In this document: positions 43,112 through 46,585 of the stretch, piece by piece | Layout: each line of letters opens with the position of its first letter | Numbering within the stretch: position 1 is the stretch's first letter | Assembly (NCBI GenBank): GCA_018982785.1 | Contig: JAHHEN010000001.1 | Location: 558,001 to 622,000, forward strand | DNA from: Enterococcus innesii | GTDB taxonomy: Bacteria > Bacillota > Bacilli > Lactobacillales > Enterococcaceae | Direction of reading: 5' to 3' | Length of the DNA: 64,000 nt | Position numbers and translations under genes: made by a program | The notes under the pieces: generated by a model | Seen by the model: the letters and a program-made list of their open reading frames with translations, nothing else | What the model was told of the DNA's origin: nothing | Database searches by the model: none

Positions 43112-43438
43112 TTGGATGCCCAATTAAAAAAAGGATTATTGGAAATTTGTGTTTTAGCCTATTTGCAGCATGGTGACTCTTATGGCTATGAATTAGTCAA
43201 AAACATATCTCCTTTACTGCCAATCTCAGAATCAACGCTCTATCCTATCTTGAAGCGCTTAGAGGCCAGCCGAGCGGTTGAGACTTATAATAAAAGCCAT
43301 CAAGGACGGACCCGAAAATATTACCGCTTGACCAGACTTGGCAAACAGCGGATCGATGATTTTTTAACCAACGACTGGCCCCAATTGACATTGATCCAGC
43401 GATTTATTAAAGGAGGAACATTAGATGAACAGAGTTGA
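43112..43438 (+). CDS. PadR-family regulator
   Basis: Winged-helix repressor of 108 residues (LKKGLLEICVLAYLQHGDSY, then SESTLYPILKRLEASRAVE). The start codon is TTG at 43112 after AGGAGGAGAG. It overlaps the next gene by 14 bp. PadR-HAAS pairs are common membrane-stress or cell-envelope switches in Firmicutes; PadR is here the DNA-binding part. Confidence 0.88.
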   Translation: MDAQLKKGLLEICVLAYLQHGDSYGYELVKNISPLLPISESTLYPILKRLEASRAVETYNKSHQGRTRKYYRLTRLGKQRIDDFLTNDWPQLTLIQRFIKGGTLDEQS

Positions 43439-44015
43439 TTTTATCAAGGCATTGGCTGCAGAATTATCTGAAAAAGTCAGACCTAGCGAGATTCATCAGC
43501 TGATCAACTATTATGACGAGATGATCGAAGATTTGATGGAAGAAGGATACACCGAAGAAGAAGCCGTGGCACGCCTTGGCTCCCCAAAAGAACTGATCCA
43601 AGCAGTCACCGAAACGGAAGAGGTCGTAGTAGAGATTCCTCGCCGCTTTCATCCCTTTTTGCTTTTGATTTTAGTACTAGGCTTCCCATTGTGGGGCAGC
43701 TTATTGTTAAGTGCCGCATTGCTGATCCTAAGCTTTTTAATAATCATCTGGTGTGTGCCTTTCACCACTGGCATGATTGGTGTCACTACGTTTATCGGTG
43801 GGATCACCAGCGTTGTCTTAAGTCCCATGCTGATGGCGGATGGTTTCTATCTCTTTTTAAGTCAGTTAGGTGTGGGGATTTTCTTATTTGGTTTAGGGCT
43901 GCTTTGCCTGATCGCCACTTATAGTATGAGCCGACCTTTTTCACGCCTTACCCATTCCCTTGTCGTTTGGCCGAAATCATTTGTTCAAAACTATCGAAAG
44001 AAGGCAGTCCTATGA
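43425..44015 (+). CDS. DUF1700/HAAS-domain membrane protein
   Basis: 196 residues: an N-terminal helical HAAS domain of about 65 residues (INYYDEMIEDLMEEGYTEEEAVARLG) followed by four hydrophobic helices. HAAS proteins are partners of PadR regulators and probably sense or relay envelope state. It overlaps padR at one end and the next small gene by four bases (ATGA). Confidence 0.86.
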   Translation: MNRVDFIKALAAELSEKVRPSEIHQLINYYDEMIEDLMEEGYTEEEAVARLGSPKELIQAVTETEEVVVEIPRRFHPFLLLILVLGFPLWGSLLLSAALLILSFLIIIWCVPFTTGMIGVTTFIGGITSVVLSPMLMADGFYLFLSQLGVGIFLFGLGLLCLIATYSMSRPFSRLTHSLVVWPKSFVQNYRKKAVL

Positions 44016-44468: not shown

Positions 44469-44954
44469 TTATTCCCCTAGTACTGGCTGTTCTTGCACAG
44501 TGCCAATAGGAAACAAGGCGCGAAACACTCGGCGAACGATTGGACCTGCAATGAACAATTGCAACGGCAATGCGACGATCACATTTTTCCCAATGTTGCT
44601 TAGCCAATTGACGAACACCGAGTGATCAGGGTTTGGGTGCATCAACGCACCAAAAAGTGACATACAGATCACCATGCCGGCGATCATCAATGAAGAAATC
44701 AAACCGATTTTTTTCCAAGTAGCTGATTGATGGTCCAAAAATCGAAACGCCAAACCTTTTGCCGGACCAGAAACAATGAACCAATCCAAAATAAAGGCGA
44801 CACAAAGGGCTAATGGCAATTCATTCCACGCCAATTGGAATGCCAATGCCGAAACACCGACTTGAAACATGAGGTTATAAACACTCATAAAATACACCAT
44901 GAAAATACACATAAGTGTCGTATAGATCAAACTTTCTTTTTTGTTGATGGGCAT
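44469..44954 (-). CDS. DUF2798 membrane protein
   Basis: 161 residues with four hydrophobic helices. The N-terminal MPINKKESLIYTTLMCIFMV and the internal repeat-like halves are typical of DUF2798 proteins. The function is unknown. It is monocistronic between the long hairpin and the promoter region of the MFS gene. Confidence 0.83.
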   Translation of the reverse strand: MPINKKESLIYTTLMCIFMVYFMSVYNLMFQVGVSALAFQLAWNELPLALCVAFILDWFIVSGPAKGLAFRFLDHQSATWKKIGLISSLMIAGMVICMSLFGALMHPNPDHSVFVNWLSNIGKNVIVALPLQLFIAGPIVRRVFRALFPIGTVQEQPVLGE

Positions 44955-45073: not shown

Positions 45074-45102
45074 TTGACACTTTCTTATGAAGTCAGTAGA
45101 AT
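45074..45102 (+). promoter_or_regulatory. Strong sigma-A promoter of the MFS gene
   Basis: TTGACA (45074-45079) and TAGAAT (45097-45102) are exactly 17 bp apart, about 110 bp upstream of the MFS start codon. Confidence 0.85.
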
Positions 45103-45127
45103 AGCGATAGATTAAATCGTACAGATA

Positions 45128-45188
45128 ACAAGCGGGTTCGCTTGTCGAGAGAGAGGCGGTTTCTATGAGAATAGAAACGGTCTTTTTT
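45128..45188 (+). promoter_or_regulatory. Attenuator-like leader with two hairpins and a small ORF
   Basis: Hairpin 1 is ACAAGCG-GGTT-CGCTTGT (45128-45145). Hairpin 2 pairs GGTTTCTAT with ATAGAAAC (45159-45178) and ends in seven T, a terminator. An ATG at 45166 inside hairpin 2 opens a 31-codon frame that overlaps the MFS start. Expression may be set by translation or ligand-dependent readthrough. Confidence 0.55.
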
Positions 45189-45211
45189 TGCGAATTTTTA
45201 GAGGTGAGAAT

Positions 45212-46585
45212 ATGGAAAACAACAAAAAACTCGTGGGGGCGATCCTCGCAACCGGATTGATGTCATTTGCAGGCGTGCTGATTGAAACAGCTATGAATGT
45301 AACGTTTCCGACATTGATCGATCAATTTACGCTTTCAACATCCGATGTGCAATGGGTGACGACCATCTACTTACTGGTCATCTCCATCATTGTCCCAATA
45401 TCGACCTACCTTTTGAAACGATTTTCATTGAGAACCTTGTTTCTAGCTGCCAACGCCTTCTTCCTTGTTGGCTTGGTGATCGACTTTTTATCGCCGACGT
45501 TTGCCATTTTGCTGATTGGCCGCTTTTTCCAAGGTGCCAGCACAGGGATCGCACTGCCTTTGATGTTCCACATCATTTTGACTTACTCCCCCTTTGAAAA
45601 ACGGGGAGCGGCAATCGGCTTAGGGAATTTGACCACTTCCATCGCTCCAGCGATCGGACCGACATATGGGGGCTTATTGACCGCCCATTGGTCTTGGAAT
45701 GCGATCTTTCTTTTCTTGATCCCAGTCTTACTGATCTCCCTAGTACTCGGCCTTTACTCGATCCCTAAGACGGCTGGGGCAAAAGACACTTCCCTTGATT
45801 TACTGAGTGTATTAGGAATCGTCTTGATGTTCAGCGGCTTCTTATTGTTCTTGAATCAAGTAGGCACCTTAGCGAGTCTACTGCCGCTGATTTTCGGTTG
45901 CATTGGTGCTGGCTTGTTTTATCAACGCTCAAAAGGCTCGAACCCATTGATTCGTTTGGCTGTTTTGAAAAACCGCAGCTTCAGTTTGTTTCTGTTTGGC
46001 TTTCTTGTTTGTCAATTCCTTTTACTGGGCATTTCCTTTGTCTTGCCGAACTTTGTCCAACTCGTCTTGGGAAAAGATGCCTTTACTGCAGGATTAGTTA
46101 TGCTTCCTGGGGCGGCCATCGGGGCGGTCCTTGCACCGATCTCTGGTCGGTTGCTGGATAAAGTTGGACCGAAAAAACCAATCCTGTCTGGTTTGACGTT
46201 GATTGCCATCGGTTGGCTTGCCTTAGCCCTCGTTTTGCGTTCGCCTTTCATTTGGAGCCTAGTTGCCGGACATGTCTTTTACATGATCGGGATCGGCTTA
46301 GCCTACAGCAATATGATGACCACCGGCTTAAACAAGCTGACTCCTGCATTGTACGCGGACGGTAATGCGATCTTTAATACGCTACAGCAATTTTCTGGTG
46401 CAGTGGCGACGGCTGTGGTGGCGACCATTATCAATTTGGCACAAAATGCGGCGACTGATTACACCCAAGGGACGGTCATCGGCTCTCAAATCGCCTTATT
46501 CTTTTTGTGGGCCCTGGTCTTACTGACTTTCCTATTAACGATCAACTACTTCCGCAAAAACACCGACAAAAAAGCTGTCAGCTAA
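45212..46585 (+). CDS. MFS multidrug exporter, DHA2 family
   Basis: Proton-coupled efflux carrier of 457 residues, mostly hydrophobic helices. It shows the DHA2 pattern: ETAMNVTFPTLIDQF in helix 1, QWVTTIYLLVISIIVP, GRFFQGASTGIALPL, and the antiporter motif C region AIGLGNLTTSIAPAIGPTYGG. The ATG at 45212 follows AGAGGTGAG; the upstream TTG is unlikely. The regulatory leader suggests drug-inducible expression. The substrate is unknown. Confidence 0.86.
   Translation: MENNKKLVGAILATGLMSFAGVLIETAMNVTFPTLIDQFTLSTSDVQWVTTIYLLVISIIVPISTYLLKRFSLRTLFLAANAFFLVGLVIDFLSPTFAILLIGRFFQGASTGIALPLMFHIILTYSPFEKRGAAIGLGNLTTSIAPAIGPTYGGLLTAHWSWNAIFLFLIPVLLISLVLGLYSIPKTAGAKDTSLDLLSVLGIVLMFSGFLLFLNQVGTLASLLPLIFGCIGAGLFYQRSKGSNPLIRLAVLKNRSFSLFLFGFLVCQFLLLGISFVLPNFVQLVLGKDAFTAGLVMLPGAAIGAVLAPISGRLLDKVGPKKPILSGLTLIAIGWLALALVLRSPFIWSLVAGHVFYMIGIGLAYSNMMTTGLNKLTPALYADGNAIFNTLQQFSGAVATAVVATIINLAQNAATDYTQGTVIGSQIALFFLWALVLLTFLLTINYFRKNTDKKAVS

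Follow-up and report, generated by a model that had tools for sequence, protein, structure and literature searches.

Guanidine-I (ykkC) and fluoride (crcB) leaders are transcription-terminating ON riboswitches of exporter genes. The lmo0919 leader is a leader-peptide attenuator of a Gram-positive resistance gene, and the SMK-box (SAM-III) leader is found in front of metK in Lactobacillales. ANTAR targets are composed of two hairpins with hexaloops of set letters, the RAT antiterminator has a consensus of roughly 29 nt and operates with a BglG-type protein, and put-like elements bring about antitermination through RNA that acts on RNA polymerase. The available part of PMC6478431 describes the HMP-PP (thiS) riboswitch as an aptamer embedded in the terminator, and that of PMC9226507 describes vmlR as a leader-peptide attenuator of a Gram-positive resistance gene.

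The leader considered here lies in a window of 64,000 nucleotides from Enterococcus innesii (contig JAHHEN010000001.1, positions 558,001 to 622,000), which is the whole stretch of DNA that was analysed. Its features, in window coordinates, are the following.

45074..45102, plus strand: promoter TTGACA-17-TAGAAT, with 11 of 12 consensus matches
about 45108-45110, plus strand: probable transcript start, from its spacing to the promoter
45114..45120, plus strand: proposed 5' strand of the closing stem (AAAUCGU), from folding and alignment, the variable pairs being without independent-lineage support
45117..45127, plus strand: conserved 5' strand UCGUACAGAUA, from alignments A1, A3 and A4
45128..45145, plus strand: hairpin P2, seven pairs, here with the loop GGUU, from covariation
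45146..45158, plus strand: conserved 3' strand CGA...AGAGGCG, with AGAGGCG at 45152-45158, from alignments
45156..45162, plus strand: proposed 3' strand of the closing stem (GCGGUUU), common to the 5' arm of the terminator
45148..45189, plus strand: intrinsic terminator hairpin with its T-run (45183-45189), from folding
45165..45260, plus strand: ATG frame of 31 codons (31 amino acids), overlapping the exporter start at 45212 and judged non-functional
45202..45207, plus strand: ribosome binding site GAGGTG of the exporter, by eye
45212..46585, plus strand: DHA2 (EmrB/LmrB-like) MFS exporter of 457 amino acids, from NCBIfam models

The exporter scores under the curated NCBIfam cut-offs (215.8 versus 230.2 bits for TIGR00711 and 220.2 versus 800 for LmrB). 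The original prediction had described a textbook promoter followed by a small hairpin and a terminator hairpin; the promoter matches the consensus as claimed, and both hairpins fold as described. Promoter-like sites in the whole region number 2 against a shuffle mean of 2.2, so that there is no excess. The segment 45108-45192 folds with a minimum free energy of -30.9 kcal/mol (z -4.93; 1 of 200 shuffles equally good). The leader terminator is absent from the list of the simple terminator scan, probably because of its mismatches. A divergent gene for a DUF2798-domain protein (44469-44954, minus strand) borders the same intergenic region as the leader; it is present in loci L001-L006 of the genus and not in the other loci read. 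Positions 43112-44015 hold a PadR-type regulator and then a gene for a HAAS-domain protein.

As in the ykkC and crcB switches, the element is a 5' leader of exporter genes in which conserved loop letters surround covarying helices, and its terminator is predicted to be excluded by the sensor fold. It differs from them in its small core and in having no Rfam match. With the HMP-PP (thiS) riboswitch, as characterized in the available part of its source, it has in common a small sensor and letters that also belong to the terminator, but our leaders precede other genes and are likewise unmatched in Rfam. The terminator ahead of an intrinsic resistance-type gene recalls vmlR and lmo0919, whereas our leaders carry no conserved peptide frame. 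A second form of the element sits, like the SMK box, at the metK locus, but at the 3' end of metK and before the next gene.

The leader had been said to belong to no known riboswitch class, and Rfam 15 gives no relevant match at the leaders. A search of the whole window with its 4227 families at curated score placed no family at the leader, the 301 bases around it returned only 7 weak unrelated matches at E up to 10, and 14 loci gave only a TPP and two T-boxes, all away from the leaders. The P2 loop differs in length and letters, unlike that of an ANTAR target, and by eye the leader bears no resemblance to a BglG/LicT RAT antiterminator. No earlier report of the element was found in a literature search whose coverage was thin for subscription papers and supplements. 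The available main text of a 26-genome and of a 50-genome RNA survey makes no mention of Enterococcus, Leuconostoc, Lactobacillales, efflux or MFS, and an enterococcal RNA map, in its available part, is Rfam-based and leaves many 5' leaders as candidates for new elements.

Conserved core and its association with the exporter

The conserved RNA is about 47 nt long, UCGUACAGAUA–hairpin–CGA…AGAGGCG, and overlaps the intrinsic terminator. A DNA search returned a leader match in 15 of 40 genomes and 10 of 30 genera, the window's own genome included. The core is absent from one of these (L015), and the other fourteen aligned leaders strictly keep AAUCGUACAGA and AGAGGCG. Across 67 aligned cores there are 18 invariant and 4 nearly invariant columns, an invariance that is partly built in, as most rows were chosen by a pattern demanding those letters; an exporter leader found without the pattern (L281) has U in place of C and AAAGGCG instead of AGAGGCG. 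Alignment A3 comprises 67 of the 97 distinct cores, with near-duplicates and the deviants L072 and L083 left out, and alignment A4 comprises 68 of the 70 distinct flank pairs, all but L002 and L083.

Covariance model R1, which was run on 85 of the 97 loci, matches 69 of 105 genomes of the family and 88 of 395 of the order at E 0.001, the weakest matches in both sets being chance. Scanning named genomes for the pattern returned 84 stretches (80 listed with names). Of the 84, 75 precede the exporter, 2 are cut by the end of the stretch, 2 precede other genes in Ligilactobacillus ubinensis and 5 are chance (L106, L107, L108, L145 and L162). The 75 exporter leaders are distributed over Enterococcus (43), Leuconostoc (9), Weissella (6), Vagococcus (6), Tetragenococcus (4), Periweissella (3) and Lactococcus (1), with 3 lacking a genus name; with Ligilactobacillus these genera are among the named hosts. 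G007, which carries the element, is probably E. faecalis, since the sequence around its leader equals a contig from an E. faecalis host at 938 of 950 bases. In the family of G326, the core model R2 found 31 matches spread over 30 of 397 genomes, 29 matches lying before the exporter and 2 in L. ubinensis. Among 398 genomes of the class, members of the order included, matches of at least 55 bits were confined to 6 genomes, all Lactobacillales; the rest scored at most 25.8 bits under stricter filters, and the best three of these were judged chance.

Five weak R1 matches (L071, L073, L077, L095 and L096) were excluded for want of the core, the twins L276 and L277 were put down to chance as terminator-like matches, and a second element in G009 (12.7 bits, opposite strand) was taken as noise. 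A mobile origin of the leader was rejected: a plasmid search gave no match, and one pattern match in viral contigs was judged chance. Three phage-collection records match the leader (OR847087.1, OR849472.1 and OR846596.1). The two that were read (L268 and L269) are unverified wastewater contigs in which an ordinary exporter gene follows, and they are therefore likely host DNA.

The leader is tied to one gene. The 105 Enterococcaceae genomes contain 65 leaders that score above 40 bits, and every one of them stands 23-554 nt (median 48) upstream of the same orthologous DHA2 exporter, on the same strand. Every exporter ortholog of at least 49% identity and near-full cover has the leader (66 of 66, 65 by R1 and one, in G010, by R2 alone at 30.3 bits). 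None was detected by R1 at the other 11 exporter homologs (36-50% identity, the 50% one partial), nor by R2 beyond noise at the 7 of these distant or partial homologs to which it was applied. Two leaderless loci show, by eye, a probable LysR-type gene end (G086) and a MarR-like frame (G011).

Two elements with terminators were found away from the exporter in L. ubinensis, one before a family-2 glycosyltransferase and the other before a surface protein with collagen-binding and Cna_B domains.

L233 8869-7163, minus strand: L. ubinensis element, not before an exporter
L234 5805-4342, minus strand: L. ubinensis element, not before an exporter

The nearest exporter homolog in that species (41%) stands behind a MarR-like frame, by eye, and no element was found there in the stretch read.

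The leader is more than a chance fold because it is conserved across genomes, and we consider it very likely that a real, conserved, non-coding attenuator RNA precedes the exporter.

Short reading frames in the leader

The original prediction had suggested that ribosome stalling on a leader peptide controls the exporter, and that hairpins or frame would be conserved. Hairpin and terminator are kept among relatives, whereas the 31-codon frame, which does exist at 45165-45260 and overlaps the exporter start, is not. In six loci of the same genus the place of its ATG holds a frame of 31 codons (the window genome), a frame of 12 codons, ATG-TAA (two loci) or ATT (two loci); the 12-codon version belongs to the nearest relative, whose leader is 98% identical to that of the window. 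The spacing between the conserved halves, taken over 97 distinct elements, falls in all three reading frames (41, 36 and 20). The ATG sits at the variable loop of the terminator, and the proposed frame takes in none of the conserved letters, which are all upstream of it.

Leader peptides do govern other Gram-positive resistance genes (see the available part of PMC9226507), and in 50 of 103 elements a closed ATG frame of at least 8 codons does start in the leader, with 46 of 103 having none of even 3 codons or more. Short frames thus occur in the leaders, but from the sequences no frame is common to them, and no short frame was found to be conserved along with a ribosome binding site and a start codon. 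The 31-codon reading is refuted because the comparison of relatives breaks the frame, and control by ribosome stalling on a leader peptide is highly improbable.

Helices, terminator and a proposed switch

The comparison of orthologous exporter leaders, which had been put forward as a check, reveals covariation in hairpin P2. Its cells are paired in 92.8% against 68.3% in shuffled alignments, 134 cells are changed on both sides against 40, and the covariation score is 0.772 against 0.293, with 0 of 500 shuffles as good in each case. All seven pairs are changed on both sides, a count that is itself not above chance (shuffle mean 6.5). The loop varies in length and letters among relatives. The closing pair 16-40 is A-U or G-C, and on a quick tree of 98 exporters its 6 independent pairs gave 4.3 same, 0 opposite and 1.7 without change (median p 0.125, 6 pairs being too few to reach 0.05). 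As in riboswitches, conserved unpaired letters are joined to helices kept by compensatory changes.

RNAalifold, unprompted, returned P2 together with part of a closing stem (UCGU with GCGR), to which three outer pairs can be added; this stem replaced a first antiterminator idea in which AGA(U)AAC paired with GUUUCU. Three of its seven pairs are invariant and 4 are changed on both sides, with 86.3% of cells paired. The 4 variable pairs alone are paired in 76.1% of cells against 62.0% in shuffles, with covariation of 0.450 against 0.253 (0 of 500 for each). The number of pairs changed on both sides (4 versus 3.4 in shuffles) and the further pair types at the 4 variable pairs (10 versus 9.8) show no excess. 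On the tree of 98 exporters, pair 4-57 gave 0 same, 1 opposite and 3 without change, and pair 3-58 gave 0.6 same and 5.4 without change; neither covaries independently, so that the evidence for the closing stem within exporter leaders is at the level of clades. A swap test was weak (-4.93 kcal/mol native versus -4.25 swapped, foreign arms being worse in 66% on average). In Vagococcus most elements have A.A or A.G at pair 4-57 in that register, and in some elements only about 4 pairs of the stem are left.

A terminator-like hairpin, by our threshold, is present in 96 of the 97 distinct elements; in the sole exception (L068) a G interrupts the T-run. The conserved AGAGGCG forms the 5' base of the terminator. 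When the growing RNA was folded at successive 3' ends, closing stem plus P2 was the best fold at those tried from 45162 to 45177. The probability of the pair C45118-G45158 is 0.63-0.94 over this range, 0.12 at 45180 and 0.00 at 45183, by which point the terminator has displaced the closing stem. The terminator fold is far more stable (-29.7 versus -13.1 kcal/mol for closing stem plus P2), and therefore the default without help would be termination.

These folds suggest a non-coding cis-regulatory RNA that would govern the exporter by transcription attenuation, and the earlier view that the leader terminator probably switches the exporter is upheld. With polymerase at about 45162-45177, AAAUCGU is predicted to pair with GCG and the terminator arm, forming a stem that closes off P2 and the conserved internal loop. 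Unless something holds this fold, the 3' arm of the terminator would displace the closing stem and transcription would stop. A small molecule binding the internal loop could hold the closing stem and let transcription continue, and the ligand would most likely be something that the exporter removes, or a signal of that compound's presence. A closing stem that is predicted to exclude the terminator makes a riboswitch-like ON switch the best reading, and direct small-molecule sensing with ON control is, from the modelled folds, the mechanism that we think probable.

The main rival is a host RNA-binding protein, responsive to drug or stress, that binds the conserved loop and P2 and blocks the terminator. 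Short conserved strands around a hairpin of variable loop are also what RNA-binding proteins read, and direct ligand binding by the element is something that we infer. In the loci read, however, the exporters have no conserved regulator gene next to them, and by eye their neighbours differ between genera. Across scattered genera, genomes have either both element and exporter or neither, so any partner protein would need to be widespread across the order; this joint pattern would fit a self-contained sensor. We therefore judge a protein antiterminator to be unlikely, if conceivable. An RNA that acts on RNA polymerase itself, by pausing or in a put-like manner, or a fixed attenuator without any signal, would be consistent with an element that follows the promoter closely and sits right on the terminator; a fixed attenuator would, however, have no need for so many constrained columns (22 conserved or nearly so) and for linkage to a single exporter, and we hold this group of readings to be improbable.

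The second form at the metK junction

A related form of the element stands behind metK, ahead of a second DHA2 exporter that differs from the first. Outside the genus of the avium group, (A/C)GAGGCG and then a terminator come directly after the metK stop, and GGTCGTACAGA (Gly-Arg-Thr-Asp) is part of the metK coding end. Inside that coding end UCGUACAGA is found in 14 of the 15 loci that have (A/C)GAGGCG after the stop, the exception (L325) belonging to another family.

G000:C7:8954-9073 (L331): metK-junction form in the window's own genome, first half in synonymous metK codons (R2 score 20.5 bits)
L303-L306, L308, L309, L311, L313, L314, L316, L318-L320, L325: metK-junction loci, first half in synonymous metK codons except in L325
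L283-L300 except L296, and L271-L275: avium variant, in which the internal loop is changed and the metK stop is followed by the variant's own copy

TCGTACAGA lies inside metK in 14 of 15 element loci. Among metK-exporter loci that lack the element it occurs in 0 of 10, and the avium loci, which have their own copy, show it in 2 of 18 (the 18 represent 17 genomes, as L301 and L295 come from one). Fisher's test, with kinship ignored, gives 3e-6 against the 10 and 2e-8 against all 28. Background usage of CGT and ACA is 0.39 each, from which about 2 of 15 loci would be expected by chance. Five of the 30 second-exporter loci (L312, L322, L323, L328 and L330) stand outside this count, having no metK tail in the stretch, and L271-L275 were excluded as repeats of genomes already counted.

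In most element loci a helix bridges the metK coding end, as where UCGAUUUGCC pairs with GGCAAGUGUGA, though good pairing is also seen in single loci that lack the element (L302, -12.6 kcal/mol). The metK form retains the closing stem by means of different pair types: over 14 loci, pair 4-57 is G-C in 13 and G-U in 1, and pair 3-58 is formed in 12. Of all the observations, this form appears to argue most strongly for the two conserved halves acting as a single RNA. It also bears on the idea that a transcription factor binds the conserved letters as a DNA operator immediately past the promoter. Although TCGTACAGATA begins about 8 bases past the probable transcription start, the metK form has the same letters within coding sequence and P2 covaries as an RNA helix while its loop changes length, and an operator is scarcely credible.

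The avium-group variant, TCGTACAGAC-hairpin-GAGT-N-GAGGCGG, was reached through weak R1 and R2 matches. Its pattern has 18 matches in 17 of the 105 family genomes, all in one genus, against 1 match for a reversed control pattern. Seventeen of the 18 lie directly behind metK, and the second DHA2 exporter is recognized by motif in 17 and by its frame in 16; L296 was rejected as a chance match. The metK codons of the avium-variant loci vary.

Taken with the switch proposed above, these observations lead us to suggest, tentatively and at somewhat short of even chances, a new riboswitch class, confined to Lactobacillales in what was searched, that directly senses a toxic or drug-like compound and turns on two DHA2 exporters. 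At one of them it would be half-written in synonymous codons at the end of metK, the tail of a housekeeping gene serving as its neighbour's sensor, and the same RNA would stand before the glycosyltransferase and collagen-binding-type surface protein genes of L. ubinensis. Enterococci have intrinsic tolerance to many drugs, and to our knowledge the inducers of their chromosomal exporters are mostly not known. A conserved RNA that seems to gate two exporters would be a direct handle on induction, and the compound that opens it is probably an exporter substrate or a close signal of one. The element would also bring in an orphan riboswitch-like class that Rfam 15 lacks, in an unusual form where synonymous codons of an essential gene seem to act as part of a downstream regulator.

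In the window's own genome the second exporter gene (G000:C7:9097-10526) matches as two pieces, one with an internal stop, and in a close relative (G001) it is one open frame.
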